Shown in pieces: positions 37,856 through 55,713 of a stretch of 64,000 nt of DNA. Source of the DNA: Tahibacter aquaticus (GTDB taxonomy: Bacteria > Pseudomonadota > Gammaproteobacteria > Xanthomonadales > Rhodanobacteraceae); the NCBI RefSeq assembly GCF_004363655.1, contig NZ_SNZH01000009.1:124792-188791 (forward strand), written 5' to 3'. Positions within the stretch are counted from its first letter, which is position 1; each line of letters begins with the position of its first letter. Both the position numbers and the translations under genes were made by a program. The notes under the pieces were generated by a model. The model ran no database searches, was not told the origin of the DNA, and was given only the letters and a program-made list of their open reading frames with translations.

Positions 37856-40800
37856 TCACTGGAAGCCGTCGCGGAAGATGCCTACCGCATCGGGCCCGTC
37901 GACCGCGGTGTTGTTGCCGGTCTGCGGATCGCTGTACGCCGCAGGCAGGCCGACCGAGACTGACACCTGCAGTGGCAGCTCCGGTGTGTGCGGCACGCTG
38001 GCATTGAGCAGGAAGCTCACGCGGCTGCCGGCGGTCAGGTTGACCAGGGCGTCGAGTGCGCCGCTGCCGGCGGGCGCGGGGCAGCTGGCGCCGCCTGCCG
38101 CGCTGCAGACCCAGGCCAGGTCGGTCAGATGCGCCGGCAGCACAGCCTGCACACGCGCCGCGCTGACCGGATTGCCGCTGGTGTTCTCTACCTCGATCAG
38201 CCAGCCCGGCCGGCTGCCGCCGTGGACGAAATCCACGCCGTTGTCGTTGCTGATGGCGACATCGGCCTGAATGCGCGGCGTGACGTTGAGGCTGTTGGAC
38301 GCGGTGCCCAGCCCCAGGTCATTGCGCGCGCTGACCGTGCAGGCGTAGACCGTGCCGGCGCTGAGCCCGCTCACCGTCAGCGGCGAAGCCGTGCCGCTGG
38401 CGACATGCGTGCCCGGTGTGCAGCTGGCCTCGTAGCCGGTGACGGCGCTGCCGCCGTTGTCCGGCGTGCTGAAGCTCAGCGTGACACCACTGCCGTTGCT
38501 GGTCGCCACGGCGCTGCTCAGCGCCGGCGCGGCGGGCACCGTGGCGGGCGTGACGCTGGCGCTGGGAACGGATGCCGTGCCTTCGCCGACCTTGTTGATC
38601 GCGGCCACGGTGCAGGTTACTGCGACGCCGTTGCTCAAGCCGGTCACGACGACGGGCGAGGCAGCGCCGGTCTGGCTGGCGCTGCCGCAGCGCGCCGTAT
38701 AGTCGGTGACTGCGCTGCCGCCGTTGGCCGCCGGCGGCGTGAACGCCACGCTGACCTGGGCATTGCCGCGCGTCGCGACGACGGCGGTCGGCGCGTCCGG
38801 TACGGCGGCCGGTGTGACACTGGCGCTGGGCGCGGAAGCGGCCCCTTCGCCGACCGCGTTGACCGCGGCAACGGTACAGGTCAGCGCGACGCCGTTGGTC
38901 AGTCCGCTCACGACCAGCGGTGAAGCCGCACCGCTGGTACTGGCGCTGCCGCAGCGCACCGTATAGCCGGTCACCACACTGCCGCCGTCAACCGCCGGTG
39001 GCGTGAACGCGACGCTGATCTGGCCGTTGCCGCGCGTGGCCACGACAGCCGTGGGCGCGTCGGGCACGGTAGCCGGCGTGATACTGGTGCTGGCGGCAGA
39101 GGCTGCGCCTTCGCCGACTTCATTCGTTGCGGCGACGGTGCAAGTGACTGGCACTCCGTTGACCAGTCCGCTCACGACCAGCGGCGACGCCGTGCCGGCC
39201 TGGCTGGCACTGCCGCAGCGCGCGGTATAGCCGGTCACTGCGCTGCCGCCGTCGACCGCCGGCGGTACGAAAGCCACGCTGGCCTGGGCGTTACCGCGGG
39301 TTGCCACAACCGCCGTCGGCGCGCCGGGCAGCGTCGCCGGCGTCACCGTGTTGGAAAGCGCGGAGCTGGCGCCCTCGCCGACGTCGTTGCTTGCCTTCAC
39401 GCTGCAGCTCACCGGCGTGCCGTTGGCCAGGCCGGTCACCACGACTGGCGACGCCGCGCCGCTTTGCGTCGTGCTGCCGCAGGTGGCGCTGTAGCTCGTG
39501 ACACTGCTGCCGCCGTCGCCTGACGGCACGAAGGCGACGCTGACCTGCGCATTGCCGCGCGTGGCGACAAGGCCCGTCGGCGCATCGGGCACGGTGGCCG
39601 GGGTCACGCTGTTCGACGGCGTCGACGGCGCGCTGTTGCCGCGCGCGTTGGCGGCGCTGACGACACAGCTCACCGCCGTGCCGTTGGCGAGGCCGGCCAC
39701 CACGATGGGCGGTGCCGCCGCGTTCTGACTGTGACCGCCGCAGGCGGCGGTGTAGCCGGTGATGGCACTGCCGCCGTTGCCGGCCGGCGCGGCGAACATC
39801 ACGCTGACCTGGCCGTTGCCGCGCGTGGCGGCTACGTTCGTCGGCGGGTCGGGCACGGTGGACGGCGTGACTGGTCCGATCAGGTCGGGCATGCCCTGCC
39901 CAATGTCGTTCACTGCGACGACGCTGCAGAGATACGCCGTGCCATTGGCAAGCCCCGTCACCACGATCGGCGAAGCCGTGCCGTTGGCGCTGAAGGTGCT
40001 GCAGCGTGCGATGTAACCGACGATCGGCGAGCCGCCGTCGCTGGCGGGCGGCTCGAATGCCACGCTGATCGACGCGTTGCCCGGTGTCAGTACGATAGTG
40101 CGCGTCTGGCCCGGGCGTGCGGCCGGCGTGACACTCGCCGACGCCGCCGACCAGGGGCTGTAGCCGATGCTGTTGTGCGCCCGCACGCGGCAACTTACTG
40201 CCACGCCGTTGGCGAGCCCGCTCACGACGATCGGCGAAGCAGTGCCGGCCATGCTCTGGCTGCCGCATTCGGCCGTATAGCCGTCCACGGGGCTGGTGCC
40301 GGGATCGGCCGGCGGCAGGAAGTTCACGCTTACCTGGCCGCTGCCGCGCACGGCGTCGCCGATGAAAGGGGCCGTCGGCGTGGCGGGCGTGAGCACGCCG
40401 TGGGCGACCGGCGTCGCGATGGATGCGGCGTAGATCGTGTTGCCGCCGTAGCTCGCCGTGAGCTGTTTCGTGCCGGGCGAAGCCGAGGTCAGTGCGCAGC
40501 TGCCGCTCGCGCTGGTGCCGCTGCCTGAAAGCACTGCATTGCACACGGCGCTGCCGTCGCCGACGGCGACGCTGCCGTTGATGTCCGCGCTGCCACTGCT
40601 GCGCGTGACCGTGACGGCCACGCTATACGCCTGGCCGGGCAGCGAAGGGGCTGGCGCGTGCGAGTCGATGCGCGTCGAGGTCGCGATCAACGGCACCGAG
40701 GGCACCAGCGTGCGGAACACGTCCAGGAAGCCTTGCGTGTCGTTGGGCACGAGGTTGCCGGCGGCGGTGTTGAACGTCATGCGGCCATCGTTCGCCACCG

Positions 40801-43800
40801 CGCGCGGTCCGGCCGTGACCGGCAAATTGGCCGGCGCACCTGTCGAGTCGACGGAGACCCGGTGCAGGCTGCCGCTCTGCCGGTTCTTCACGTAGGCCAG
40901 CGCGGTGTCCGCGCCGGCGCCGTCAATGAGTCCGGCCTGGGCGCAGACGAAACCTATCCAACTGGCATCGCCGCTGAGTGCCGCGCTGCTGCAATCACCG
41001 CCGCTGCCTTGCTGGCCTGTGCTGCTGAGGTTGGCGCGCGTGACTGCGCCGCTGACGAGGTCTTTCACGAACACGTCGATGCGGCCATTGTCGTCGCCGG
41101 CAACGAGATTGCTCGCGGCCGAGACGAAGGCGACGTAGCGTCCGTCGGCGCTCAGCGAGGGCGCGCTGCTGGCACCATTGCCTTGCGTGCCGTCCGCAGC
41201 GCTGCTGGCGCGCACGATGCTGCCGTCGCCGAGCCACTTCACATAGATGTCGCTCACGGCGTTGCTGTCGTCGGCGGCGAAATTCGTGGCGAGGCTGGTG
41301 AAGGCCACGCGCGAGCCGTCGTCGCTGATGATCGACTGCGTGCTGTCGCCGTTGCCGGGCGTGCCGGCCGATGTCGCGCTCACCAGCGTGGTCACGTTGG
41401 TGGTGCGGTTCTTCAGGAACACGTCCTCGAAGCCGTTGCTGTCGCCGGCCGTGAGCGTGGTGTCGGTGGCGCGGAAGACGATGAGGCTGCCGTCGTAGTT
41501 GAGCGTCACCGGCCCGAGCACGGTGCCGGCGGTCACCTGCGCGCCGCCCGAGGCAGTGCTGGCGCGGTACAGGATGAAGTTTTCCTGGTTGCCGACGTAG
41601 ACGTCGGGCTTGCCGTTCGTATCGCCCGTGACGATGTTCGTCGCCGTCGAGCGGAACGCGACCCAGGCGTTGTCGGCGCTGATGAACGGCGAATCGGCGC
41701 GCTGGCTCAGCGAGAGGGTGGGGCCGGCGCGCAGGGCGAAGTTCGTGCTGCCGTTGTAGAAGACGAAAGCGTCGCGCACGAGGTTGCCATCGCTGTCGCC
41801 GTCGACCACGTTGCTCGCATCCGACGTGTACATCACGCGGCTGCCGTCGCGCGAGATCATTCCCTCGCCGCTGTCGCCGTTGGAGCGTGTGCCACTGGTG
41901 ACGGCGGCGCGCTGCGCCGTGACCCAGTTGCGGTCGAAGACGAACACGTCCTGCAGGCCGTTGAAGTCGGACAGCGTCACATTGCTGTTGTTCGAGGCGA
42001 AGCTGACGAAGCGGCCGTCGGCGCTGATCGCGGGCGTGATGGCCGCGCCAGTGGTCTGCAGCACGCCGCCGCTGGTGCGGTCGATGCGGATGGGTTCTCC
42101 CGTGCTGCGGTCCTTCAGATAGAGGCGCGTCATCGTTCCCGTCGATGCCGAATAGAAATTCAACTGGAACGCCACGTAGCGCCCGTCCGGCGTGATGGCC
42201 GGCGCGCCGGCGGTGCCGCCGATCAGCGTGCCTGCCGCATTCGCCTGGGCGCGCTCCACCGCGCCGGTCTGCATATCTTTGATGTAGACGTCGGGGTTGG
42301 CGGGGTTGGCAGGCAGGGCCAGGTCGCGCGAGTACGACATGAAGGCGACGAAGCGGCCGTCGGCGCTGACGACGGGATTCAGGCTGGATTCGCTCGCGCG
42401 TACGCCGGCCGCGTTCGCGCTGGCCAGGCGGATCTGCCGCGTCACGCGGTCCTTGATGTAGATGTCCGGCCCGATATCGGTGTCTTCCGGCACGAAGTTC
42501 GATGCCTGCGAGCTGAACACGACGTAGCGGCCGTTTGCGCTGATGTAGGGCGTGTGGTTGCGGAAATTGGCCAGTGTCTCGTCGCTGGCCGTGCTGACGA
42601 GGTCGAGTTCACCCGTGAGCATGTCCTTCACGTAGACGTCGTTGTGAATGTTCGTATCGCGCGGCAGCAGGCGGGAAAATGTCAGGAAGGCCACATGGCG
42701 GCCGTCTGCGGAAATCGACGTCGGCATGCCTTCGAACTCGTTGTTCGTCGTCGGCTGCGTGCCGTCACTGTTCATCGACACGCGCACGGTGCTGTTGCTG
42801 ACGAGATCCTTCACGAATACGTCGCGCACCGCGTTGGTGTCGTTCGGCACGAGATTCGTTGCGAGCGAGCTGAAGACGACATAGCGGCCGTCGGCGCTGA
42901 GGGAATAGTCGCCGGACTCGCCGTTCGCCTGCTCGCCTGTGCTCGACGTGTTGACGCGACGGATCAGCGATGTCCTGGCATCGCGCACGAACAGGTCGGC
43001 GATGCCGTTGCTGTCGTCCGGCACGAGGTTGGTCGCCAGCGATTTGAACAGCAGCCAGCGCCCGTTCGCGCTCAGCGACGATCGGTTGCTTTCTGACACG
43101 CCGTTACTGTCCGGGTAGGCGCGCTTGCCCGCGCTGGCCAGCGTGATCTTCGGATCGACCACCTGCACGGCGAACGGCGGACTGCTGCGGGGAGGCTGGC
43201 CGGCGACGCCGGTCCATGTCGCGACCAGCGTGTGCAGGCCCGGCGTATTGCTGGTCCAGGTGCATTCGTTGCCTGAGGTATAGACACGGCAGAAATCGGT
43301 GCCGTCGCTGACGTCGATATAGCCGCCGGGCGGCGGGTCGAGGAAGCGCGTCGTCTCGAAATCGACGATGACCGATATGCCCTGGCCGATGCGTGCCACG
43401 CTCGGCGACGCGCGTGCGATGCGCAGTTGCGTCACGCTGACCGCGGTAGTGGCGGTACTCGCGTTCCAGGGCCCTTGCACCGCGAAATTCGCGCTCAGGT
43501 TGTGCAGGCCCGCGTCGGTCGGGGTCAGCGTGCACTGGCCCGTTTCGCCCGGCGTGCCTTCCAGCACGATGGTGCAGCGCGATGTGTACAGATCGTCCGG
43601 CGGGCCGTCGAGCACTTCGACCACGCCTTTGGGCTGGCCGCCTTGTGCCGGCGTTTCGTCGACACTGACCCTGACCGTCACCGGTTCGAATGGCGCCGCG
43701 TTGGCAGGCGTCACCTCGACGATGCTGGTGGTGGTCGGACGGCCTGCGCTGACGTTCTGCGCGAAGCTCGCGCTCGCAGGCGCGGCGGCGCCGTCGCCGG

Positions 43801-45388
43801 CATAGCAAAGCCTGAGCGTGCGCTGGCCCGGCGTGCTGAAGGTGATGCTGCAGGAATTGCCGGGCAGCGCGACGCTGCACTGGTGTGCAGGATCGGACGG
43901 TGGCGAGGCGCAGTCGGGCGCGTCCTTCACCACGACGGACCCCGTCAGCGCCAGCGGCGGTGCGCCGAACGGCGCAGCCAGCGTCCACTGCAGGGCCAGC
44001 GGTGCGCCGACTGCCACCGGGTCGCTGCTGCTGCCGATCGCGCTGAATTCCACGGCGCCTGCGACCGTGTGCTGCTCGGTGTCGCTGCTGCCGTCGAAGC
44101 CGGCGTAGCCGAGGTATTCGGCAGTGATGGTTTTATGCCCGCCGGCGTTCGGCGCGAGCAGGCATTCGCCCGTCTCGTTCGCCGTGCCGGCCAGGGCGAT
44201 GGTGCAATAGGCCGTCGTCGGGTCCTGGCGCAAGCCGTCGCGCACTTCGATCACGCCCAGCGGATTGCCGGCGACGGGATTGCCGGCAGCCTTGGCCACG
44301 TTCACGCGCACGGTGATCGGCTGCGTGCCGGTGCTTGCATCCGGCAGGTCGGAGACGATGGTCGTGACCGTGTTCGCCCCTGTGGCCATGTACCAGTTCA
44401 CCGCCGCGTTGAAACGCATGCGCGCCGACATGATGCCCCAGTGGTTCGGGGTTATGCGGTAGCTGCCGATGCTCGAACTGGCGAAGGCGGTGCTGCTGTC
44501 GAAGCGCACCGCGATCTGGCAGGACTCGCCCTGCGGATTGCTCTGGCGGCCCACGTAGACCAGCGAGCTGCGGTAGTCGTCCGGCGTGCCCTGGATGCCG
44601 TCCAGGCCGGCGCGTGCCAGGCGCAGGGTGGCAATGTCGTCATGCTGCAGATGGCGCTGCGCCTCGCCGGCACGCGCGCCCTGCACGGCGGCGGCTTCGG
44701 CATCGGCATAGCCAAGGCCGGCCAGCACCTGGCGGTTGGCATTGGCGGCGAACAGCGCGCCGGCCGGCAGCGCGCCCAGCGTGCGGGCCATGGTGGTTTC
44801 GTCGACCACGCCGGGCAGGGCGCCCGGGTCGTTCACGCCACGCTGGTACCAGTGCAGGTTGATGTCGTCGCCGCGCACGTCGTCGGCCGAACCGTGTACA
44901 CCGTCCGCGCCCGCGCCCTGGTTCCAGCTGTTGTTCGGACCGTCGGCACTCTTGGTACCGAAATACGCGTTGCCGCTGAGTCCCGATTCATCGGCGTGGT
45001 TCGGATGCGCAACGCCGTGTGCGTGCAGCATCTCGTGCAGCAGCGTGCTCTCGAAATCGTACTGGGCCGCCGGCACATCGGCGTCTGCACCGCTGGCATA
45101 GGTGTTGCGCGCCAGCGAGCGGAAGCGGTTGAAGGTGGCAATGACATTCTGTACGGCCGGCTCAGCCTGGATCGCCAGCGCCGCATTCACCTCGATATCG
45201 ACGCAGACGCGGATCGGTTCCAGATCGCCGCCCCATCCGTTGAAATTGCGTGCGTGGCTGCGCACGTCGAGATTGCTCTCGTCGGCGACGATGTAGGCAC
45301 CGGCCTGGGCCTGCGCGCAGAACAGCTGCGCGCACAGCGTGGCCAGCAGGGCGGGGCAGAGCACCGGCAGACGGATCGCGCGCCTCAT
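37856..45388 (-). CDS. giant exported zincin-motif protein with Ig-like, PD40-propeller and Fn3-like domains (module A)
   Basis: A 2510-residue protein with signal peptide (about 1-29). Residues about 30-330 form a metalloprotease-like domain with LLHEMLHAHGVAH (H118, E119, H122, G125, H128) and a possible Met-turn (DETTMARTL, M200). Ig-like beta-sandwiches with paired Cys follow (about 340-750), then about fourteen PD40/TolB-type propeller repeats (about 760-1560, SLSADGRYVVFSSLATNLVP type), an Ig-like domain, eight Fn3-like repeats (about 1680-2370) and a DUF11-like end. The tail is AVGIFRDGFQ. It overlaps the upstream small-protein gene by ATGA and is paralogous to the gene at 46953-54182. 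Secreted or surface protease/adhesin is the best guess. Confidence 0.85.
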   Translation of the reverse strand: MRRAIRLPVLCPALLATLCAQLFCAQAQAGAYIVADESNLDVRSHARNFNGWGGDLEPIRVCVDIEVNAALAIQAEPAVQNVIATFNRFRSLARNTYASGADADVPAAQYDFESTLLHEMLHAHGVAHPNHADESGLSGNAYFGTKSADGPNNSWNQGAGADGVHGSADDVRGDDINLHWYQRGVNDPGALPGVVDETTMARTLGALPAGALFAANANRQVLAGLGYADAEAAAVQGARAGEAQRHLQHDDIATLRLARAGLDGIQGTPDDYRSSLVYVGRQSNPQGESCQIAVRFDSSTAFASSSIGSYRITPNHWGIMSARMRFNAAVNWYMATGANTVTTIVSDLPDASTGTQPITVRVNVAKAAGNPVAGNPLGVIEVRDGLRQDPTTAYCTIALAGTANETGECLLAPNAGGHKTITAEYLGYAGFDGSSDTEQHTVAGAVEFSAIGSSSDPVAVGAPLALQWTLAAPFGAPPLALTGSVVVKDAPDCASPPSDPAHQCSVALPGNSCSITFSTPGQRTLRLCYAGDGAAAPASASFAQNVSAGRPTTTSIVEVTPANAAPFEPVTVRVSVDETPAQGGQPKGVVEVLDGPPDDLYTSRCTIVLEGTPGETGQCTLTPTDAGLHNLSANFAVQGPWNASTATTAVSVTQLRIARASPSVARIGQGISVIVDFETTRFLDPPPGGYIDVSDGTDFCRVYTSGNECTWTSNTPGLHTLVATWTGVAGQPPRSSPPFAVQVVDPKITLASAGKRAYPDSNGVSESNRSSLSANGRWLLFKSLATNLVPDDSNGIADLFVRDARTSLIRRVNTSSTGEQANGESGDYSLSADGRYVVFSSLATNLVPNDTNAVRDVFVKDLVSNSTVRVSMNSDGTQPTTNNEFEGMPTSISADGRHVAFLTFSRLLPRDTNIHNDVYVKDMLTGELDLVSTASDETLANFRNHTPYISANGRYVVFSSQASNFVPEDTDIGPDIYIKDRVTRQIRLASANAAGVRASESSLNPVVSADGRFVAFMSYSRDLALPANPANPDVYIKDMQTGAVERAQANAAGTLIGGTAGAPAITPDGRYVAFQLNFYSASTGTMTRLYLKDRSTGEPIRIDRTSGGVLQTTGAAITPAISADGRFVSFASNNSNVTLSDFNGLQDVFVFDRNWVTAQRAAVTSGTRSNGDSGEGMISRDGSRVMYTSDASNVVDGDSDGNLVRDAFVFYNGSTNFALRAGPTLSLSQRADSPFISADNAWVAFRSTATNIVTGDTNGKPDVYVGNQENFILYRASTASGGAQVTAGTVLGPVTLNYDGSLIVFRATDTTLTAGDSNGFEDVFLKNRTTNVTTLVSATSAGTPGNGDSTQSIISDDGSRVAFTSLATNFAADDSNAVSDIYVKWLGDGSIVRASSAADGTQGNGASSAPSLSADGRYVAFVSAASNLVAGDDNGRIDVFVKDLVSGAVTRANLSSTGQQGSGGDCSSAALSGDASWIGFVCAQAGLIDGAGADTALAYVKNRQSGSLHRVSVDSTGAPANLPVTAGPRAVANDGRMTFNTAAGNLVPNDTQGFLDVFRTLVPSVPLIATSTRIDSHAPAPSLPGQAYSVAVTVTRSSGSADINGSVAVGDGSAVCNAVLSGSGTSASGSCALTSASPGTKQLTASYGGNTIYAASIATPVAHGVLTPATPTAPFIGDAVRGSGQVSVNFLPPADPGTSPVDGYTAECGSQSMAGTASPIVVSGLANGVAVSCRVRAHNSIGYSPWSAASASVTPAARPGQTRTIVLTPGNASISVAFEPPASDGGSPIVGYIARCSTFSANGTASPIVVTGLANGTAYLCSVVAVNDIGQGMPDLIGPVTPSTVPDPPTNVAATRGNGQVSVMFAAPAGNGGSAITGYTAACGGHSQNAAAPPIVVAGLANGTAVSCVVSAANARGNSAPSTPSNSVTPATVPDAPTGLVATRGNAQVSVAFVPSGDGGSSVTSYSATCGSTTQSGAASPVVVTGLANGTPVSCSVKASNDVGEGASSALSNTVTPATLPGAPTAVVATRGNAQASVAFVPPAVDGGSAVTGYTARCGSASQAGTASPLVVSGLVNGVPVTCTVAATNEVGEGAASAASTSITPATVPDAPTAVVATRGNGQISVAFTPPAVDGGSVVTGYTVRCGSASTSGAASPLVVSGLTNGVALTCTVAAVNAVGEGAASAPSASVTPAAVPDAPTAVVATRGNAQVSVAFTPPAANGGSAVTDYTARCGSASQTGAASPVVVTGLSNGVAVTCTVAAINKVGEGTASVPSASVTPATVPAAPALSSAVATSNGSGVTLSFSTPDNGGSAVTGYEASCTPGTHVASGTASPLTVSGLSAGTVYACTVSARNDLGLGTASNSLNVTPRIQADVAISNDNGVDFVHGGSRPGWLIEVENTSGNPVSAARVQAVLPAHLTDLAWVCSAAGGASCPAPAGSGALDALVNLTAGSRVSFLLNASVPHTPELPLQVSVSVGLPAAYSDPQTGNNTAVDGPDAVGIFRDGFQ
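38281..40350 (-). repeat. eight tandem Fn3-like domain repeats, about 260 bp each
   Basis: Eight units of 86-88 residues share PDAPTAVVATRGNxQVSVAF, GGSAVTGYTARCGS, ASPLVVSGLxNGVxVTC and NxVGEGxAS. Each has two cysteines placed to bridge two strands. The three central units (roughly 38.7-39.4 kb) are the most alike in DNA, suggesting recent tandem duplication or gene conversion. Confidence 0.85.
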
Positions 45389-45972
45389 GGCCGGCCTCCA
45401 TCGAGGCGGACGGCGTCGCTGCGCTCGGCCAGCGCCTGCAGTGCGCTGGCCGCCTTGTGGAAGGCCTGCAGCGATTCGTTGTCCGAATACGTCTGCGCCG
45501 GGCCCGGCAACCCGGTCCAGGCCGCGACGCCGCGCTTGCCCGCACTGCGCCAGTGGATTTCGTAGCGGTCCGCATCCAGCTCGCTGTAGCGTTCCGCCCT
45601 GCCGTCGGCGCCGACATACTTGCGTTGGGCTGCGGCGATGTCGGCCTTTACGCGCTTGGCATCGAAGGTGCGCAGCGCCGGATGGTCAACCGTGCGGCGC
45701 AAGGTATCCAGCGCGGCCGGGGCCAGCTGCAGGCGGAAATCGCCGGCGTCGCGCCGGTAGGCCGGCCGGTGCAGCTGCACGCAGCCATCGTCGAACACGC
45801 TGACCACCAGGCTGCGGTCGCTGTCGGCGGCCAGCGCCGCGGCGAGCACGCGCAACTCCATGGCCGGCCCGTCGCCGGCCCCGCAGGTTGGCGCGGCATT
45901 CGCGGCAAGCGCGCCGCCCAGATACGACAGCAGCAGCCCGGCAACCAGGCAGCGAACACTTTTCACAGACAT
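45385..45972 (-). CDS. small exported protein with DGCVxxHRP motif (module A)
   Basis: A 195-residue protein with signal peptide (about 1-27, LVAGLLLSYLGGALAANAA). The mature part has cysteines C30 and C64 and the block DGCVQLHRPAYRRDAGDFRL. The paralogue at 54179-54760 has C31 and C65 and DGCVAVHRPWFLRGAGDYEL, so a conserved disulfide is likely. A later region (RYSELDADRYEIHWRS) aligns with FADTDGDVFTLRWRD. No known family recognised. The ATG at 45972 has GGAGGGG upstream, and the stop overlaps the giant gene as ATGA. Partner roles such as inhibitor, chaperone or anchor for the zincin are possible; none is proven. Confidence 0.75.
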   Translation of the reverse strand: MSVKSVRCLVAGLLLSYLGGALAANAAPTCGAGDGPAMELRVLAAALAADSDRSLVVSVFDDGCVQLHRPAYRRDAGDFRLQLAPAALDTLRRTVDHPALRTFDAKRVKADIAAAQRKYVGADGRAERYSELDADRYEIHWRSAGKRGVAAWTGLPGPAQTYSDNESLQAFHKAASALQALAERSDAVRLDGGRP

Positions 45973-46156
45973 AACCCCTCCGACACGGCTGGCGGACAGG
46001 CGCAACGCCCGTCCGGTGAGCAGCACAACAGTTCTTGCAATCACCCCATGAGCACTCGAGCCCGCGCGGCGAAGCATCGTGGGGAGTGTCGAAACCATTA
46101 CCGTTTTTGCAGCAGGGCAACTGTCAGGCGGCGGGGAGAATCTGCGCGGGCAGCCG

Positions 46157-46597
46157 ATGAGCACGGCGCCGCTCCAGGGGGCTGGTGATCGGCCACGCTT
46201 TGGCAAAGAATCCGCACGCCGCGCCAACGCGGCCCACGAAGAAAAAACGAGGCGCCGCGCCCTGGTCCGTTCCGCCGCCGGCATCGTGCTGGGCGTGCTC
46301 GTCCTGGCCGGCACTGCCGTCGGCGATGCCGCGAAATCGCGCTTCGAACCGCTGATGGGTCCAAAATTCCGCGAGGCAGCACTCGATCGTGCTACGCCGG
46401 CCGGGATCGCGCTCCTTGAGCAATTCATGATCGAGCATGCCGGCGAGCTTCGCGCGTTGATGCCGGCACCCGATGCCACGTCGGCGGTCGCCGTCGTCGC
46501 CGCGGAATCGGCGCGCGAGCGACGCGCCGGGACGAAATCCGCAGCCAGCGCGGAACCGGTGTCCAGCCGCATCGCCGGTGCTGGCGCCCCGGCATGA
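46157..46597 (+). CDS. small single-helix membrane protein, unrecognised
   Basis: About 146 residues: a basic, cytoplasm-facing N-terminus (ARRANAAHEEKTRRRALV), one transmembrane helix (GIVLGVLVLAGTAVGDAA) and a soluble region (FREAALDRATPAGIALLEQF, MIEHAGELRALMPAP) with an Ala/Ser-rich end. Codon use is as in the other genes. The ATG at 46157 is one choice; an in-frame GTG at 46079 would add 26 residues. It sits between the two giant-protein modules on the opposite strand. Function unknown. Confidence 0.45.
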   Translation: MSTAPLQGAGDRPRFGKESARRANAAHEEKTRRRALVRSAAGIVLGVLVLAGTAVGDAAKSRFEPLMGPKFREAALDRATPAGIALLEQFMIEHAGELRALMPAPDATSAVAVVAAESARERRAGTKSAASAEPVSSRIAGAGAPA

Positions 46598-46620
46598 CCC
46601 TGACGTTGGCGAACGGACAG

Positions 46621-46766
46621 CATGGCGCGTCAGCGACGACAGCGCGCTGTCGATCCCGCGCTCGCTGGACAGTCCCGCCGTGACCATCGAAGCCGGATCG
46701 TTCGGCAGCTGTTGGCTGCGCGTCGAGGGCTACAACACCGCGGCGCGCGTGAAGCCCGCGAACTGA
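46621..46766 (+). pseudogene. coding-like fragment ending in TGA, unrecognised
   Basis: A frame reading TAWRVSDDSALSIPRSLDSP, TIEAGSFGSCWLRVEGYN and KPAN to a TGA at 46764-46766 has protein character but no start or ribosome site of its own. It directly follows the previous gene in another frame, so it may be the remainder of a frameshifted longer gene. Confidence 0.35.
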
Positions 46767-46839
46767 GTGCAGCCGGCGCTCCGGCTGATAGGCAGCGACG
46801 CAGCAATGCCGCGCACGCGGGCTGTGCGCGAACGGCCGA

Positions 46840-46870
46840 CCTTCTCCCCCGCTGCAATCGGGAGAGAAGG
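46840..46870 (-). terminator. hairpin downstream of the 2409-residue protein gene
   Basis: CCTTCTCCCCC (from 46840) pairs with GGGAGAGAAGG (to 46870) with a loop of about 9 nt and one bulge. It lies about 80 nt past the stop on the minus strand. CTTCTCCC/GGGAGAAG stems are a common terminator form in related GC-rich genomes. Confidence 0.5.
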
Positions 46871-46952
46871 AACCGATAAGCCAAGCGATGCGCTGCATTG
46901 GCCCCTGTTGCGGAAACTGGCGGATTGCGCGCGCGTCCGGGTGCTGGCCGCG

Positions 46953-49900
46953 TCACTCGATCGGGCAGGCATCCGGATTGCCCGCAGCGTCGAAGCCGTT
47001 GCGGAAGACCGCCTCGATCAGTGCCAGCACGGTGACCGCGAACGGACTCGCCTGGCTCGACTGATGGTTGCTGTCGCCGCCGTAGCTGGCGCCGAGCAGG
47101 AGCGCCGCCGCCGGCTGCTGGTAGGCCGACAGCGTCGTCAGGCAGGTGGCCGCACCCTTGTCAAAGGGAACCTTGCCGCATAGTGCACTTTGTCCGTCGT
47201 CGAAATCGACGCTGCCGGTCGCGTTCACGCCGCCGCTCAGCCTCGCGACGAGCGTGTACGGCTGGCCTTCGACGAAGGTGCGCAGGCAGTTGCTCGACAG
47301 CATGAGCGTGGTGGCGGTCTTGGCGATGACGGCAGTGGCATTGCCGCTGGCGGTGTAGTGGATGCCGTCGCAGCTGGCTGACACCGTCGTGCTGCCGGCA
47401 TTTGGGCCGATGCTGGCTGGCACGACGGTGCAAGTCGTGCCCGGTTCGTGGTGGATATGCGCGCCGATGGTCTTGGCGTTGCCGTCGTAGACGAAAGCCA
47501 GTGTGTCGAAGTCCACCGTGCTTTCGACGCGGCGTACGGTGTGACTCAGGGCGTTCGACACCGGCTGCTGGTCCACCGCATAGGTCGCATCGCCGCCATA
47601 GCGCGCAGTGATGACGTGGTCGCCGACGCTCAACGCGGCAACGGTGCAGGCGGCCGTGGCCGGCGCGGCCGTCGTCAGCGCAAGCTGGCTGCAGGTGGCG
47701 ATCGCTGTGTCGCCGTCCTTGAACGTGATCGTGCCGGTCGGCGTCGCGTTCGCCGGTGCAATGGGTTCCAGCGTAACGGTGAAGGTCAGCGGCTGGCCCC
47801 AACTGCTCGGCTGCACGCCGCTGGTCAGGGCCAGCGTGCTGCGCACCCGCGCCGGCGCCGGTGTCGCGCTCAGGGCGTTCGATGCGGCGCCCGTGGACGC
47901 GGCGTTGCGGGCGCTGACGTGGCAGCTCACTTCGACGTCGTTGGCCAGGCCGGTCACGCTCACGGGCGAAGCCGCGGCAGTGGCCGACTGGCTGCCGCAG
48001 GTCGCCGCGTAGTCGAGGATCGCGCTGCCACCGTTGCTGGCCGGCGCGTCGAAGACCAGCGTGACGCGTGTATCGCCGGGTTGTGCAGCGGTCAGCACGG
48101 GCGCACCGGGTGCGGCCGCGGGCGTGACTGACACCGGCCCGCCGAGCGCACTGAGGCCCATGGCATTGTGGGCGAACAGGCTGCACGCGACGGTGCTGCC
48201 ATTGGTCAGGCCGGTCACCATCAGCGGCGATGCCGGCCCGGTCGCGACCTTGCCGAAGCAGACCGCGCGGTAGTAGTCGATAGGGCTGCCACCATCATTC
48301 GCGGGTGCGGTGAACGACAGCGTGGCGCTGCCGTCGCCGGGCTGCACGCCGGTGATGGCCGGCGCGCCCGGCGTGGTCGCCGGCGTCACGCCAAGCGCGT
48401 TCGACGCTGCACCCGCGCCGAGAACATTGCGTGCGGTCACCGTGCAGTTCTCCGCTGTGCCGTTGGCCAGGCCTGTCACGATCAGCGGCGAAGCCGTGCC
48501 GACGGCGGTGTTCGCGCCGCAGGTGGCGGTGTAGTCGAGCACCGCGCTGCCGCCGTCGTCAGCGGGCGCGCCGAAGATCAACGTGGCGCGGCCGTTGCCC
48601 GGCGTCGCCTGGGTCAGCACAGGCGCGGCAGGCACGTCGGCGACCGCGTGCACGGCCGTGCCGCTGGAGCCGGTGTTGGCGGCGTCGCCGGCGTAGCTTG
48701 CAGTAAGCGTCCTGTTGCCCCGTGCCGTGGCAACCAGCGCGCAGCTTCCGCTCGAGGGCGCGCCCGGCGTCAATGCCGCCACGCACGTCACCGCGCCGTC
48801 GGCGATGATGACCTGTCCGCCGGGTACCGGCGTACCTTCGCCGGACACCGCCACGCTCACGCTGTACGCGGTGTTCACGCGCGACGGGTTGGGTGCCTGC
48901 GCGACGATGCTCGTGACCGTGCCGGCTTTCGGCGTCGCGGCGAGCGGGTCCGAGGGCGGGCTGTTGCCGATGCTGTTGTGCACGACGACGCGGCAGTCCA
49001 CCGCCACGCCGTTCTGCAGTCCGGTCACGCTGACCGGCAGGCTGGTACTGGTCTGACTGCGCGTGCCGCAGGTAGCGGTATAGCCGGTGAACGGCGAACC
49101 GATGTTGCTGAAGCCGATCTGCAGCGTGACGCTGCCATTGCCGGGTGTGGCGCTGGTGATGACCGGTTTGGCCGGCGCAGTCGGATCCTGCACGGCCAGT
49201 GCATAGGGCTGCGAGTTCGCCGTGCCGTTGCTGTCGTCGCCGCCGTAGTAGGCCGTGAGCGTTGCGTTGCCGCTGACGCCGGTGGCCATGTTGCAGCTGC
49301 CGGTCGAGGGCATGCCGGGCGTCAGCGTGGCGACGCAGGTGGGGTAGAGATCGGTGCCATCGAATACGCGCACGCGGCCGGTGGGTGGATTCGCGCCCGA
49401 GCCTGTCACGCTCACGCTGACTGCATAGCCGCCGCCGGCCTGCGGCTGTGCCGGCGACGTCGACACGATGCTGACTGTGCTTGCGGCGAACGTGGCCGCA
49501 TACCGGTTCAGGAACACGTTGGAGACGAGCGGCGAATCGAGTGCGGCCAGATTGCCGGCATCGGATGCGAATACGGCCGTGCCGTTGTCGGCGAGCGCAT
49601 GCGCCCCCGCGCTGCTGGCGGCGTCGGCGGCGACTGCGGTGTCGGTCTGCGAAACACGCACGAGGGTTCCGCTGCTCCGGTCCTTCACGTAGAACGCGGG
49701 CGTGCTGGCGCCGCCGGCCACGAGATTGCCCTGCGCGCAGACGAAGCCGACGAAGCGCGCGCCGGCACTGAACGACGGCGAGGCGCAGTCGCCGCCGCTG
49801 CCTTGCGTGCCGGACGTGCTGGCGTTGACGCGCTCGATCGCGCCGGACTGCAGGTCCTTGACGAAGATGTCGGCAACGCCGTTGTCGTCGCCTGGCACGA

Positions 49901-52900
49901 GATTGGTCGCCCATGACACGAAGGCGACGTAGCGTCCGTCGGCGCTTACGGCGGGCTGCTCGCTGTTGCCATTGGCGGCCACGCCGGCGGTGTCGGCGCT
50001 GACCAGTTGCATCGGCTGCGGCACGTTGAAGTACTCGCGCATGTTCCGCGCGAACACGTTGCGCACCGGATTGCCGCTGACGCCGAGGTTGGTGGCGTCC
50101 GAGGCGAACGCGAGGATGCGGCCGTCGTCGGAAATCGACGGTTGCAGGCTGTTGCCGTTGGCGGCCACCGTAAGCGGATCGGCAGCGCCGCTGCCGTCAG
50201 CGCGGTAGACGACGATGTCGGTGAATCCGTTGCGGTCGCCGGAAATGCCGCCGTCGGGCGAAGCGAAGGCGACGAGCCGGCCGTCGCCGCTGACCGCGAG
50301 CGGTGCCTGTGCATCGGCGGTAGCCTGCGCGCCGAAGAACAGGTTCACGCGCTCGACGGCAGCGTTGGCGAGACGCTTGCGGAAGACGTCGATCCTGCCG
50401 TTCGTGTCGCCAGCGACGAGGTTGCTCGCGGCCGACAGGAAGTACACGTCGCCCGTGCTTTCGGCCAGCGCCGGCGCGAAGCTCGCGCCGTTGCCGGGCG
50501 TGCCATCGGCGGCGGCGCTGATGCGCGTCGTCGCGCCGCTGCCGGCGCGGTAGACGAACACGTCGCGCGTGCCGTTGGCGTCGCCGTCGATCAGGCGCGA
50601 GCTCCAGGAGTCGTAGAAGGCCAGGCTGCCGTCGCGCGAGATCGCGATAGTCTCGCTGTCGCCGTCGTTGCGCAGACCGGAGTAGGCGCCGCTCGCGCGC
50701 TGAGTGAGGCCGAGCGTGCGGTCGCGCACGAACACGTCGGCGGCGGCATTGTGGTCGGGCGGCGCAATCGCCGACGACACTGACTGGAAGGCGGCGAAGC
50801 GCCCGTCGGCGCTGAGCGAAGGCCACATGCGCGGCTCCCACGACACCTGCTCGTCGAGCGCAGCGACGCCGCCCGGCGTCACGTGCTGGTTCACTATCTG
50901 GCCAGTCTGGCGATCCTTGACGAACACGGCGACGTAGCCCGGTGTCGCGTTGACCCCGGCCTGGAATGCCAGGTAGCGCCCGTCGGCGCTGAGCGCAGGC
51001 GTCAGGCTGCTGGTGTACGGGCTGCCCGTAGCGGCCAGTTCGATCGCGCCGTTCGTCAAGTCCTTGACGAAAACGCGGCTGCCGCTCCAGCCGTTGCTGG
51101 GCAGGTTGGTCGAGCTGCACTGGAAGGCGACGAAGCGACCGTCGGCGCTGATGGCCGGGTAGTCGTTGCAAGCGCCGTTGGCCGGCGTGCCGTCCGCCGC
51201 TGCGCTGGCCAGCGAGGAGACGCGCGTCAGGCGGTCCTTGAGGAAAACGCGATTGCTGGCTGCGCTGGGCGTGAAACCCGGCACGAGATTGCCGGCTGTC
51301 GAGTTGTAGACGACGTAGCGGCCATCCGCGCTGATGGCCGGAAACTGGCTGTGGTTGTCGCCCGGCTGGTCGGCACTGTTGCTGCTGACCAGATCCAGCG
51401 CACCGTTGGCGAGATCCTTGACGTAGACATCGATGCGGCCATTGGTATCGCCCGGCACCAATGTGCGATAAGTGGAGAAAGCGACATGGCGCCCGTCGGC
51501 GCTCAGCGACGAACGCAGCGCCGTGCCGGCCAGCGCAAGCTCGGGGCTGCTGGCTGCGCTGCCGTCGGCGCGCGTGGTCGCGCGCACGATCGCGCCGCTG
51601 TAGAGATCCTTGACGAAGATGTCCCTGTCGTTGCTGTCGCCCGGAAAGAAATTGCCTGCCTGCGACTGGAACGACACGTAGCGGCCATTGGCGCTGATCG
51701 AGGCGAAGCGGCTTGCGTCGTTGCCCTGGCTGCCGTCGGCGGCGACGCTGGCGCGGCGCACTGCGCCGCTGAGCTGGTCGCGCACGAATACATCCTCGAC
51801 GCCGTTGCTGTCGTCGCTGACGAGATCGTTCGCGCTGGAAGAGAACACCAGAAAGCGGCCGTCCGCGGAGAGGCCCTGGTTCGACCCGCTCGACGCATCG
51901 TTGCTTTCCGGGTAGCCGCTGCGCGCCTGCGACACCCAGCGCGGATACGGCGCCGCCAGCGAAACCGTCTGTGTCACCGCGGCCGTGGTCATGGCCGGAT
52001 AGTTCGCGTCGCCGCTCCAGGTTGCCGTGAGCTGATGCGTACCGGCACTGCTGCCATGCCAGAAGCATTGGCTGGCCGGCAGCACGATCTCGCAGGTGTC
52101 GGTGCCGTTGCCGACGACGATGGTTCCTGTCGGCGCAGGCGTGCCGCCGAAAGGTGCGACTTCCAGTGCAACCACCACGCTCGCTGCGTGTCCGAGCGGC
52201 ACGCTGGATGGGGTGTTGCTGACGATGGCGAAGTGGCGCACCGCATGCGCGACCTGGGCCGAATGGCTGCCCGTCCACATTCCCTGGTCGGCGAAGGAGG
52301 CCGTCAGCAGATGCGTGCCGGCGCGGTTCGACGCGATCTGGCAGGACGCGGTCTCGTTCGGCGTGCCGGCCAGCAGCGCCGTGCAGCGCGCGCTGAGCGG
52401 GTCATTCTCGTCGCCATCGCGCACGATCACGGCGCCCTGGACAAGGCCGCCCTGGCCGGGTGTCTCGCGCACCTGCACCTGCACGGTGTACGGCTCGAAC
52501 GGCCGGGTCTGCGCCGGCGACTGCGCGACGATGCTGGTCGTGGTCGCGTGGCCGGCGAGCACCACATGCGTCACGCTCGCCTGCGCAGCTGCCACCGCGC
52601 TGTCGCCGCTGTAGCACAGTTGCAGTGTGTGCGTGCCGGCGCCGGAAAAGCGCATGGAACAGGCGTGTACCGGCAGTGTCACCGAGCATTGCTGCGAAGG
52701 ATCGGCCGGTGTGGACGCGCAATCCGCGGCCGCCTTCACCACCACGTTGCCGCTGGCCTGCACGGGTGCGGCGTTGTGCGCTGGTGCCAGCGTCCAGTCG
52801 AACATAACGTCCACGCCGATGGCGGACGGGGAGGGCGTGGACGTCACGTTGGAGAACGCGACCACGCCGCTCGATTCGTGCGTCACCGTCGCCGTGTTGC

Positions 52901-54182
52901 CGTCCCAGCCACCCCAGCCGAGATAGTCGGCAGTCAGCGTCTTGTGGCCGGCTGCCAGCGGCGTCAAGGTGCAACTGCCGCTGCCGCCGGATTGCGCGGC
53001 GAGTTCGATGGAACAGGTCGCCGTCTGCGGATCGCCGCGATCGCCGTCGCGCACGACGACGGTGCCGCGCGGCGTACCGCTCATCGGGTTGTAGCCGGCC
53101 TTGCCTACTGTCACCTGCACGGCATAGGGCGCAAGGCCGACCGTGGTGCCCGGCGTGGCCGGATCGATCTGCATGACCGTGTTAGCGCCCGGGGTGAAAT
53201 ACCAGTTCACGGCCGCGTTGAAGCGCATCCGCGTCGGATAGATCAGCCGCCAGTGATTCGGGGCCAGCGGCGTGAGGCCGACAAGGGTGGCGGCCAGGGC
53301 GACTTCGTCGCTGAAGCGCACCACGGTCGAGCATTCGCCGCCTTGCGGGTCGTTGTAATAGCCGGCGAAGACCGCGCTGCTGCGATAGTCGTCGGCGGTG
53401 CCGGCGATGCCGTCGATGCCGGCCCGCGCCAGTCGCAGCATTGCCATGTCGTCGTTGTGCAGGTGGCGGCCGACGCGGCCCTGCACGTAGCCCTGGACGG
53501 CTACCGCCTTGCTGTTCGCATGGCCGAGCGCGGCCATCGCGTCGGCATTGCCGTTGGCGGCGAAGTGCTGGCCCGGCGGCAAGGCGTCGAGCGTGCGCGC
53601 CATGGTCGTGGTGTCCACGACGGCAGGCAGGACGGCGGGATCGTTCGATCCGCGCGCGTACCAGAGCAGGTTCACATCGTCGCCGCGCTGGTCGTCCGCC
53701 GAACCGGGAATGCCGTCGGCGTCGCCGAGATGATCGAGCACGCCATTCGCGCCGCCGCTGCTGCGGGTGTCGTAATAGGAATAGCTGCCGTCGCCGGCGG
53801 GGTTGTTGGCCTGATTGGGATGGTCCAGGCCAAGCGCGTGCATGAACTCGTGCAGCAGCACGGTTTCGAAATCGACCTGGTCGGCCGGAGCACTGGTATC
53901 GGTGCCGGCGGCGAAGGTGTTGTCCGGCAGCGAACGGAAACGGTTATAGGTGGCGATCACGTTGCGCACGGCCGGCTCCGCAGCGGTCGCAAGGTCGGGA
54001 TTGATCGAGTTGTCGAGGCAGACGCGGATCGACGGCAGTTCGCCGCCGGTGCCGTAGTAGTTCTGGTGCGCGACGCGATCGGGCTCGTCCTGGCTGACGG
54101 TCACGAAGCCACCGGCGCCGCCCACCTGCGGCAGCATGGCCACGGCGCAGGCGACGAATGCGGTCAGGTGCAGGCGCTTCAT
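46953..54182 (-). CDS. giant exported zincin-motif protein with Ig-like, PD40-propeller and Fn3-like domains (module B)
   Basis: A 2409-residue paralogue of the module A giant. Signal peptide about 1-23; zinc motif LLHEFMHALGLDH (H111, E112, H115, G118, H121) followed by PNQAN; DTTTMARTL as possible Met-turn. Then Ig-like domains (about 330-750), PD40 propeller repeats (about 767-1560), an Ig-like domain, four Fn3-like domains with paired cysteines (about 1660-2100, one interrupted by an Ig-like unit) and two further Ig-like domains. The end is EAVFRNGFDAAGNPDACPIE, the shared tail motif plus an extension with a Cys. ATGA overlap with its small partner gene. It has half as many Fn3 units as module A, so copy number varies. 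Confidence 0.85.
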   Translation of the reverse strand: MKRLHLTAFVACAVAMLPQVGGAGGFVTVSQDEPDRVAHQNYYGTGGELPSIRVCLDNSINPDLATAAEPAVRNVIATYNRFRSLPDNTFAAGTDTSAPADQVDFETVLLHEFMHALGLDHPNQANNPAGDGSYSYYDTRSSGGANGVLDHLGDADGIPGSADDQRGDDVNLLWYARGSNDPAVLPAVVDTTTMARTLDALPPGQHFAANGNADAMAALGHANSKAVAVQGYVQGRVGRHLHNDDMAMLRLARAGIDGIAGTADDYRSSAVFAGYYNDPQGGECSTVVRFSDEVALAATLVGLTPLAPNHWRLIYPTRMRFNAAVNWYFTPGANTVMQIDPATPGTTVGLAPYAVQVTVGKAGYNPMSGTPRGTVVVRDGDRGDPQTATCSIELAAQSGGSGSCTLTPLAAGHKTLTADYLGWGGWDGNTATVTHESSGVVAFSNVTSTPSPSAIGVDVMFDWTLAPAHNAAPVQASGNVVVKAAADCASTPADPSQQCSVTLPVHACSMRFSGAGTHTLQLCYSGDSAVAAAQASVTHVVLAGHATTTSIVAQSPAQTRPFEPYTVQVQVRETPGQGGLVQGAVIVRDGDENDPLSARCTALLAGTPNETASCQIASNRAGTHLLTASFADQGMWTGSHSAQVAHAVRHFAIVSNTPSSVPLGHAASVVVALEVAPFGGTPAPTGTIVVGNGTDTCEIVLPASQCFWHGSSAGTHQLTATWSGDANYPAMTTAAVTQTVSLAAPYPRWVSQARSGYPESNDASSGSNQGLSADGRFLVFSSSANDLVSDDSNGVEDVFVRDQLSGAVRRASVAADGSQGNDASRFASISANGRYVSFQSQAGNFFPGDSNDRDIFVKDLYSGAIVRATTRADGSAASSPELALAGTALRSSLSADGRHVAFSTYRTLVPGDTNGRIDVYVKDLANGALDLVSSNSADQPGDNHSQFPAISADGRYVVYNSTAGNLVPGFTPSAASNRVFLKDRLTRVSSLASAAADGTPANGACNDYPAISADGRFVAFQCSSTNLPSNGWSGSRVFVKDLTNGAIELAATGSPYTSSLTPALSADGRYLAFQAGVNATPGYVAVFVKDRQTGQIVNQHVTPGGVAALDEQVSWEPRMWPSLSADGRFAAFQSVSSAIAPPDHNAAADVFVRDRTLGLTQRASGAYSGLRNDGDSETIAISRDGSLAFYDSWSSRLIDGDANGTRDVFVYRAGSGATTRISAAADGTPGNGASFAPALAESTGDVYFLSAASNLVAGDTNGRIDVFRKRLANAAVERVNLFFGAQATADAQAPLAVSGDGRLVAFASPDGGISGDRNGFTDIVVYRADGSGAADPLTVAANGNSLQPSISDDGRILAFASDATNLGVSGNPVRNVFARNMREYFNVPQPMQLVSADTAGVAANGNSEQPAVSADGRYVAFVSWATNLVPGDDNGVADIFVKDLQSGAIERVNASTSGTQGSGGDCASPSFSAGARFVGFVCAQGNLVAGGASTPAFYVKDRSSGTLVRVSQTDTAVAADAASSAGAHALADNGTAVFASDAGNLAALDSPLVSNVFLNRYAATFAASTVSIVSTSPAQPQAGGGYAVSVSVTGSGANPPTGRVRVFDGTDLYPTCVATLTPGMPSTGSCNMATGVSGNATLTAYYGGDDSNGTANSQPYALAVQDPTAPAKPVITSATPGNGSVTLQIGFSNIGSPFTGYTATCGTRSQTSTSLPVSVTGLQNGVAVDCRVVVHNSIGNSPPSDPLAATPKAGTVTSIVAQAPNPSRVNTAYSVSVAVSGEGTPVPGGQVIIADGAVTCVAALTPGAPSSGSCALVATARGNRTLTASYAGDAANTGSSGTAVHAVADVPAAPVLTQATPGNGRATLIFGAPADDGGSAVLDYTATCGANTAVGTASPLIVTGLANGTAENCTVTARNVLGAGAASNALGVTPATTPGAPAITGVQPGDGSATLSFTAPANDGGSPIDYYRAVCFGKVATGPASPLMVTGLTNGSTVACSLFAHNAMGLSALGGPVSVTPAAAPGAPVLTAAQPGDTRVTLVFDAPASNGGSAILDYAATCGSQSATAAASPVSVTGLANDVEVSCHVSARNAASTGAASNALSATPAPARVRSTLALTSGVQPSSWGQPLTFTVTLEPIAPANATPTGTITFKDGDTAIATCSQLALTTAAPATAACTVAALSVGDHVITARYGGDATYAVDQQPVSNALSHTVRRVESTVDFDTLAFVYDGNAKTIGAHIHHEPGTTCTVVPASIGPNAGSTTVSASCDGIHYTASGNATAVIAKTATTLMLSSNCLRTFVEGQPYTLVARLSGGVNATGSVDFDDGQSALCGKVPFDKGAATCLTTLSAYQQPAAALLLGASYGGDSNHQSSQASPFAVTVLALIEAVFRNGFDAAGNPDACPIE

Positions 54183-54760
54183 GGCGCGCCCTCCGTTCCG
54201 ACGCGTTTGCCCGCGCGCGTGGCGAGGGCACGCAAGGCGCCGATCGCTGTGGCGACGCGACTCAGCTCGGCGGACTTGGGCTGGCGTGCCGATGCCTGCT
54301 GTGGATTGCGCGCGACCAGCCGATGCGATGCATCGCCGTCGCGCCAGCGCAGTGTGAACACGTCGCCATCGGTGTCAGCAAACACGACCGCAGCCGTCGG
54401 CGCTTCTTTCCACACGCCCTCTGTCTGCGCGCCAAGGCGCTGCTGATCGACCTTGCCCAGCTCATGGGGCGCGACTGCGCTTTGCAGGGCCGCCCATTCC
54501 TGTGCGCCAAGGCGCAGTTCGTAGTCGCCCGCGCCGCGCAGAAACCAAGGCCGATGCACAGCGACACAGCCATCGGCATGCGCGCGGACTTCGATGCGGC
54601 TTTCCTTGCCGTCGCGCATCACCCCGCTGTCGATGGACAGTTCGAATACCGCCGGCGGCGAGTCCGCGCAGGCGACAGTCGCGGCCGGGGCGGCGAGCGG
54701 CAGCAGCAGGACGATGGCGGCGGCGTGTCGGCACCAGGGGAAAGTCGGGCGGCGGGACAT
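54179..54760 (-). CDS. small exported protein with DGCVxxHRP motif (module B)
   Basis: A 193-residue paralogue of the module A small protein. Signal peptide about 1-28 (AAAIVLLLPLAAPAATVA); mature cysteines C31 and C65, 34 residues apart exactly as in module A; block DGCVAVHRPWFLRGAGDYEL. TVAC could be read as a lipobox, but module A has no equivalent. The ATG at 54760 has GGAG 7 nt upstream; a longer frame to 54832 lacks a signal peptide at its start. It overlaps the giant gene by ATGA, so both modules keep the same order and coupling. Confidence 0.75.
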   Translation of the reverse strand: MSRRPTFPWCRHAAAIVLLLPLAAPAATVACADSPPAVFELSIDSGVMRDGKESRIEVRAHADGCVAVHRPWFLRGAGDYELRLGAQEWAALQSAVAPHELGKVDQQRLGAQTEGVWKEAPTAAVVFADTDGDVFTLRWRDGDASHRLVARNPQQASARQPKSAELSRVATAIGALRALATRAGKRVGTEGAP

Positions 54761-55404: not shown

Positions 55405-55537
55405 GATTCCGGCTGTTCTCTGGCGGTGGCGTCGCTGTCGATAGTAGCGGAGCCGGCCAGCTTCTCGCCTTGTCTTTCGATGCGCAGGCGAAATCGGGCT
55501 TTGGCGGACTACTCGTTCGCGATGTCGCCGGCTACGA

Positions 55538-55713
55538 GTGTCCTGTCTCGCCAATACCAGTGAACAATTCCGGTGTCTTGACCAGCTTCGCTGTTGAAAA
55601 CCGCCGCGATACGTCGTTGCGATACGTCGCCGCAGCGTTGCTACACCTCTTCATCGCGCCTGGTCTCCCGGCGAAATCCATCCGGAATTTCTTCACCATG
55701 GCGAGACAGGCTG
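55538..55713. repeat. inverted-repeat-ended element, copy 2 (MITE-like)
   Basis: Same left end as copy 1, GTGTCCTGTCTCG (55538-55550). The right end keeps CGAGACAGG (55702-55710) but has CTGC where copy 1 has ACAC. The interior is about 90% identical, with a 3-bp gap near the right end. It abuts the TAG stop of the kinase gene (55716-55714). In one frame both copies read KKFRMDFAGRPGA and NDVSRRFSTAKLVKT, without a conserved start. Confidence 0.72.

Follow-up and report, generated by a model that had tools for sequence, protein, structure and literature searches.

In the AprI/AprA gene neighborhood, a metzincin protease is encoded together with its inhibitor, and matrixins carry an N-terminal prodomain with a cysteine switch. 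AprI is thought to hold AprA inactive until secretion, and in Pseudomonas aeruginosa bamI and mep72 are cotranscribed, the toxicity of Mep72 in Escherichia coli is relieved by bamI, and the two proteins bind (PMC4334185). Emfourin (PF20242) and protealysin are an inhibitor and a metalloprotease that are encoded in one operon and form a 1:1 complex (PMC9505478). Here, we describe a locus in a 64,000-nucleotide stretch of the Tahibacter aquaticus genome (contig NZ_SNZH01000009.1, positions 124,792 to 188,791; hereafter, the window). Positions 37856 to 54760 of the window hold, on the minus strand, two head-to-tail modules, each with a gene for a small, predicted exported protein of ~194 amino acids followed by a gene for a predicted exported zincin with an HExxHxxGxxH motif. 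By analogy with the systems above, the small protein is probably a separately encoded, translationally coupled periplasmic inhibitor of the zincin (a prodomain in trans).

An initial annotation of this DNA had described two head-to-tail modules with the same gene order and an ATGA overlap, and both points are borne out by the coordinates and the junction sequence, as follows.

54179-54760, minus strand: small partner A, 193 amino acids, with a hydrophobic N-terminus and a DGCVAVHRP block
46953-54182, minus strand: giant zincin A, 2409 amino acids, with a matrixin-like core, Big_3_5, PD40, and fn3 domains, and FRNGF near the C-terminus
53151-54182, minus strand: zincin core of giant A, residues 1-344, from the core alignment (E 3.6e-162 in the order-level profile scan)
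53820-53852, minus strand: zinc motif of giant A, HEFMHALGLDH, from the core alignment
54190-54194, minus strand: GGAGG, ribosome-binding-like, within small gene A and upstream of the giant A start, from the junction sequence
54179-54182, minus strand: ATGA overlap of small gene A and giant A, 4 bases, from the junction sequence
45385-45972, minus strand: small partner B, 195 amino acids, with a DGCVQLHRP block
37856-45388, minus strand: giant zincin B, 2510 amino acids, with a matrixin-like core, Big_3_5, PD40, and fn3 domains, and C-terminal IFRDGFQ
44357-45388, minus strand: zincin core of giant B, residues 1-344, from the core alignment (E 5.6e-164 in the order-level profile scan)
45005-45037, minus strand: zinc motif of giant B, HEMLHAHGVAH, from the core alignment
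45395-45399, minus strand: GGAGG, ribosome-binding-like, within small gene B and upstream of the giant B start, from the junction sequence
45385-45388, minus strand: ATGA overlap of small gene B and giant B, 4 bases, from the junction sequence

The sequence ...CCATGA... is shared by both junctions, a GGAGG precedes it within the 3' end of each small gene, and the zinc motifs are HEFMHALGLDHP in giant A and HEMLHAHGVAHP in giant B. The DGCVxxHRP block of both small proteins, as well as the HExxHxxGxxH motif and the Pfam domains Big_3_5, PD40, and fn3 of both giants, agree with the initial annotation. Pfam detected no peptidase over cut-off in either giant and nothing in either small protein, and NCBIfam gave no match over cut-off for the small proteins or giants of the window. 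The two small proteins share 27% identity (E 1e-10) and the two giants 43% identity over 2170 columns. Small A has relatives of 68 to 77% identity in four genomes (G003, G005, G006, and G007) and small B has relatives in two others (G002, 53%; G022, 39%), each followed directly by a zincin. Because separate relatives are closer to A or to B, the modules appear to be old paralogs rather than a recent copy. No second genome with tandem modules was found among the related and order-level genomes scanned; other multi-module genomes carry their modules far apart or on separate contigs.

The pairing extends well beyond this locus. The related-genome, species, and order scans overlap (L039=L014, L040=L010, L043=L029, L045=L021, L091=L019, and L097=L027), and their counts are not independent; many of the relatives' genomes are metagenome-assembled genomes (MAGs). 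Among 61 related genomes, small B matched 13 and small A 11, weak matches included. At the 18 distinct places examined, a zincin follows the small gene directly in 14 (13 ATGA junctions and one GTGA junction), and in G044 (L021; L045 is on the same contig) the zincin lies upstream of the small gene. Three weak small-protein matches without the family look (L024, L025, and L035) were judged to be probable chance matches and were dropped. Across the 299 genomes of the order, a profile of 46 small proteins gave 51 rows in 43 genomes and a zincin-core profile gave 55 rows in 46 genomes. Fifty of the 51 small rows adjoin a same-strand zincin within 662 nucleotides; the remaining row, in G182, covers 64 positions (E 4.5e-4). 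The initial annotation had the small gene always first, which holds for 47 of the 50 paired rows; the other three come from G044 and, as two fragments of a single gene, from G060, both of them genomes in which the zincin comes first.

Approached from the zincin, a profile scan of an 84,980-species collection yielded at least 68 loci, from which eight matching the zinc-motif region alone (L099-L106) were set aside. In 40 of the 60 loci kept, the small gene adjoins the zincin among the matches listed, 38 by hidden Markov model (HMM) and 2 by eye (L065, without an HMM match, and L089, at E 0.045). The other 20 loci are unpaired, two of which (L070 and L088) begin close to the edge of a contig, and none of the 20 showed a small-gene remnant at E 1e-3. 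When neighbors within 6 kb were clustered by blastp, the small protein was the most recurrent, with 31 loci in one cluster among the matches listed. The next clusters, each judged from one example, were the zincin's own antisense frame (19 loci), an ABC-ATPase-like protein (9), and a regulator-like protein (6); the remaining ten of the 14 largest clusters reflect lineage synteny in Nitrosomonas. None of these 14 clusters pointed to a pair-specific third gene. By record title, linked pairs occur across many genera and in a few other phyla. With a zincin next to 50 of the 51 small rows, and no other gene recurring as often around the zincins, a dedicated partnership of the two proteins is strongly supported. 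For the same reasons, the co-occurrence search that the initial annotation had suggested finds the small-protein homologs beside zincins, not mostly away from them.

The junctions are tight in most of the 39 pairs compared, with 22 overlaps (19 of exactly 4 bases and 3 others), 10 gaps of up to 40 nucleotides, 5 longer gaps, and 2 pairs with the zincin first; these distances were taken from the start codon nearest to the small-gene stop, which favors short values. As a test of co-inheritance, the distance matrices of 45 cognate pairs (L027 excluded) were compared; without correction for species phylogeny, r was 0.44, against a highest value of 0.34 in 2000 permutations. At medians of 3.5 versus 1.6 (45 pairs), the small protein has diverged at roughly double the rate of the core.

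The zincin core of the family comprises ~320 residues. Its catalysis looks intact, because all 60 aligned cores have HExxH and all but one (59 of 60) have the third His. Between the zinc motif and the Met-turn, an RGDDxN block (R178, D180, D181, and N183) is nearly invariant across the 60 cores, and a VMQQG Met-turn ~100 residues past the zinc motif is followed by L..DD(I/V). A Met-turn followed by L..DD(I/V) is the matrixin pattern, and together with HExxHxxGxxH it makes the core resemble the matrixins (M10A, PF00413). PF00413 itself matched 11 of 13 cores weakly (best E 2.4e-5); against its 24-bit cut-off, giant A scored 18.8 bits and L014 19 bits, and giant B was unmatched at E up to 1. A core-profile search of PDB gave chains of MMP-14 as the best matches (E about 0.08), over the zinc-motif region alone. 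These likenesses suggest that the core is a matrixin-like metzincin. Unlike matrixins, it has ~100 residues from zinc motif to Met-turn, holding DDxRGDDxNxxW, and lacks a prodomain. The Met-turn residue is M in 54 of the 60 cores, A in 2, and L in 1 (3 uncovered), and both window giants are without the Met; in these giants and their nearest relatives it is replaced (Ala; Val in L011), and C129 is gone. Other members of the family mostly keep the Met-turn Met and the Cys beside the zinc motif, both of which are lost from the giant clade (the window giants, L010, L011, L028, L029, and L030). At one planctomycetal locus (L080), two tandem zincin cores occur without small partners, and the second has Glu, not His, as its third zinc ligand.

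In 13 aligned members, HExxH begins 106 to 123 residues after Met1, signal peptide counted, which leaves room for a signal peptide and the catalytic domain alone and therefore for no prodomain. The same genome also encodes zincins of another type: Reprolysin_4 (PF13583) has nine matches outside the window (contigs C15, C14, C2, C27, C3, C1, and C8), and the seven of these proteins that were viewed have long N-terminal regions of 304 to 530 residues ahead of HExxH, counted from the first Met of the frame. Minimal pairs consist of a ~320-amino-acid zincin core and a small protein, and the L017 zincin measures 343 amino acids in all. The partner of the small protein is thus the zincin core, and giant size is incidental. 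The initial annotation had paired the small protein with giants; the zincin partner stands, and the size is not intrinsic, since related zincins have about 340 amino acids.

The C-termini vary more than the core. The F-x-x-x-F tail assigned to both giants in the initial annotation is present in each, at the extreme end of giant B (IFRDGFQ) and 12 residues before the end of giant A. Paired zincins differ widely in their tails; those of Lysobacterales often end in FxxGFE, which looks like a sorting signal. Tails of this type were seen in L017, L018, L020, L039, L040, L051, L053, L056, L063, and L091 and at window positions 37856-37900. Partnerless Nitrosomonas zincins have tails like those of their paired relatives. 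Partnerless cores from Alphaproteobacteria and Planctomycetota mostly carry tails that we take to be PEP-CTERM-like, and those from Bacteroidota carry tails that are presumably type IX secretion system (T9SS)-like.

The small proteins, aligned as 46 members after exclusion of two fragments (L047 and L061), have a strongly hydrophobic N-terminus in 45 cases and a strict lipobox pattern in none. G77 occurs in every member, and G63 and P70 in 44 each. The Cys pair pointed out in the initial annotation is present in both window proteins (Cys at positions 10, 31, and 65 in small A and 8, 30, and 64 in small B) but is not a family-wide feature: it occurs in 14 of the 46, with C64 never present without a Cys near position 30. 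AlphaFold2, run on the 46-member alignment, returned a model of four strands, helices, two strands, and helices, with a predicted local distance difference test score of 89 and a predicted template modeling (TM) score of 0.81; the model is of low confidence only at the two termini and in a short segment around residues 121-130. The small protein is thus confidently predicted to be a compact alpha/beta domain.

As initially annotated, the family is unrecognized by current models: no Pfam, NCBIfam, or PHROGs model matched over cut-off (4 of the 46 members were scanned against PHROGs), and the sequence profile found no solved relative below E 1. DUF6438 (PF20033), a family of unknown function, was the sole recurring weak match (17 of 46 small proteins; best E 7.3e-5), and in the proteins viewed its matches cover the DG-V-H-P hairpin region. 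Against its 30-bit cut-off, 8 of 10 small proteins scanned matched, all below (best, 21.4 bits); hhalign against one untrimmed DUF6438 member gave a probability of 2.9, and DUF6438 was not named in the open-access literature searched. The remaining family matches involve single members at E 0.0048 or worse, including the protealysin propeptide family at E 0.11. Among the best 50 of 769 Foldseek matches, no PDB structure reached E 0.001, and a viral structure library gave no match to the model at E 0.001 or better. Nine of the top 12 PDB matches are Mago nashi entries, at E 1.4e-3 to 2.8e-2 and a probability of 0.98 to 1.00, with TM scores of 0.38 to 0.47 by query and 0.51 to 0.61 by target and 11 to 13% identity, which we read as a fold resemblance only. 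The SSI-like inhibitors sermetstatin and SSI appear among the Foldseek matches at a probability of 0.44 or less.

How, then, does this pair compare with the described systems? It resembles BamI-Mep72 in that a small gene is cotranscribed with a secreted metzincin carrying added C-terminal domains (PMC4334185). The likeness is one of gene layout. The window-type core is distinct from Mep72: just 2 of 13 cores touch NF052434, with L014 at 12 bits versus a cut-off of 645. In the flanks read at eight Mep72-like loci (7 of 9 matched genomes), there was no relative of the small family; two small-profile matches there (E 0.002 and 0.014) fall on N-terminal, signal-peptide-like stretches. The pair also recalls AprI/Inh-AprA, in which the inhibitor is likewise encoded with a metzincin, but the zincin family and the secretion route differ. 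Inh, which we take to be PF02974, was not among the 20 Pfam families matched by the 46 small proteins at E up to 1. Homology to emfourin was considered and rejected: one of the 46 small proteins matches PF20242, at E 0.3; hhalign against just three poorly aligned emfourin frames gave a probability of 0.3; and 6zyg ("Protealysin-associated protein," presumably emfourin) is not among the best 50 of 769 Foldseek matches. At each of the three emfourin loci viewed, HExxH is found 5' of the inhibitor gene. The reading of the small protein as a free-standing reprolysin/Mep72-type prodomain was likewise rejected (hhalign against nine sequences, probability 0.6). A separate locus (L128 in G731) has a lipoprotein-like open reading frame (328-897) directly upstream of a reprolysin/Mep72-type zincin (901-3582); by eye it reads like a free-standing copy of that zincin's prodomain and is possibly another "prodomain in trans" solution. 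In the part of the open-access literature covered, no title concerned the small protein-zincin pair.

Taken together, an exported protease without a prodomain and an adjacent small exported protein that is rarely found alone favor a safety catch. The upstream gene would yield a small, Sec-exported alpha/beta protein, and translational coupling would then yield a Sec-exported, matrixin-like metzincin without an N-terminal prodomain, export of both being predicted from signal-peptide-like N-termini. In the periplasm, the small protein would bind the zincin core and keep it inactive, possibly also aiding its folding, until the zincin leaves the cell, as thought for AprI/AprA and BamI/Mep72. In this genome, Ig, PD40-propeller, and Fn3 domains have been added to the zincin core. 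The pairing, the geometry of the junctions, the conserved zinc ligands, the lack of room for a prodomain, and the confident fold prediction of the small protein are observed; translational coupling, contact between the two proteins, inhibition, and the timing of release are inferred.

Several observations weigh against this proposal. Eighteen zincin loci with flanking sequence have no partner among the matches listed (by record title, six Nitrosomonas, four Alphaproteobacteria, four Planctomycetota, and two Bacteroidota, plus L092 and the truncated L095), and the zincin core can therefore exist without a small protein. In the genomes of the 20 unpaired loci, the small profile has one match, in a Nitrosomonas MAG (G710), where the small gene is on a contig without a zincin motif in the 6 kb read and the zincin is at the edge of another contig. 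Six of the 55 order-level zincin rows are unpaired, mostly at contig ends or as gene pieces: three lie at or within about 300 nucleotides of contig ends (G237, G142, and G160:C125), and the others are the second piece of a paired gene (G230), a truncated zincin (G176) whose contig equals that of L095 in length, and a match spanning 65 positions (G157). Among 274 genomes of the class, members of the small family turned up in two, the window genome and G315 (there at a contig end), and the zincin in a single one, which makes the module rare beyond the lineages named; in the order- and class-level scans, part of the first-look candidates was scored (e.g., 10 of 102), and absences are soft. The small family was unmatched to any known inhibitor family tested, and the tree correlation carries no correction for species phylogeny. 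Finally, because the Met-turn Met is lost in the giants of this genus, the activity of the window's own two enzymes appears less certain.

The partner role suggested in the initial annotation (inhibitor, chaperone, or anchor) is upheld as a dedicated partnership, with the anchor disfavored. Among the alternatives to inhibition, a dedicated foldase or secretion chaperone for the prodomain-less zincin, acting without inhibition, is a lesser possibility that deserves consideration. Many prodomains both inhibit and assist folding, and a steric chaperone in trans would fit the mostly 5' position, the overlap, and the missing prodomain. Extra cysteines in most paired cores, i.e., C68 (33 of 40) and C296 (31 of 40), may need help in forming disulfides. 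Among the 20 unpaired cores, just 2 have C68 (Fisher p 7e-8), but this difference tracks lineage and so was not counted as independent evidence. Partnerless zincins, however, keep the core sequence, so the core presumably folds alone, and the closest published layout, bamI-mep72, was studied as that of an inhibitor.

A role in anchoring or sorting, with the small protein keeping the zincin on the cell surface, is unlikely, because tails vary and the smallest pairs hold the core alone. Both genes are predicted to encode exported proteins, and the FxxGFE-type tails of many paired zincins suggest a sorting step, but no strict lipobox was found in the 46 small proteins and the core is the constant partner in minimal pairs. 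We give slightly less credence still to a cosecreted substrate or activator released by the zincin. Its precedent is a TIMP-like lipoprotein of Listeria, a small adjacent protein that is reported to be cleaved by the neighboring metzincin (PMC8235301); against it stand the predicted compact fold of the small protein, with its confident core, and the usual 5' position of its gene. Mere operon inheritance without contact (e.g., of two enzymes of one pathway) is the least probable, since, although linkage alone never proves contact, no pair-specific third gene stood out in the 14 largest clusters, the linkage crosses many genera and a few phyla, and the family scans of the small proteins gave no recurrent enzyme family.

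The surroundings of the modules in the window were also surveyed. The inter-module gap (45973-46952, ~980 bases) contains a plus-strand open reading frame (46079-46597, 172 amino acids) without a Pfam match at E 0.01. Neighboring genes encode a glyoxalase-like protein (54952-55554, minus strand), a Ser/Thr kinase with TPR repeats (55717-58497, minus strand), and a protein of 1547 amino acids with a C-terminal glycosyltransferase domain (27984-32624, plus strand); no link of these kinase, glycosyltransferase, and glyoxalase-like neighbors to the modules was seen. With respect to mobility, the L014 zincin core was unmatched in plasmids and phages, and small A had no relative in viral contigs.

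The inhibitor proposal has a broader form, to which we assign even chances: the small proteins would constitute a new family of exported inhibitors, with an alpha/beta fold unmatched here to any known metalloprotease inhibitor, and would act as a detachable prodomain, translated separately, for a new family of matrixin-like metzincins; the two genes would have been passed on together as the protease expanded from a core of ~340 to multidomain proteins of >2400 amino acids. If true, there would be a new protease family and a new dedicated inhibitor family, neither of which was seen to be covered by Pfam or NCBIfam at cut-off, and the latency element of a metzincin would be a separate, coupled gene. 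Minimal pairs of about 190 and 340 amino acids should express easily, and unannotated loci of the "small protein plus Ig/Fn3 giant" kind would become a testable two-component system.

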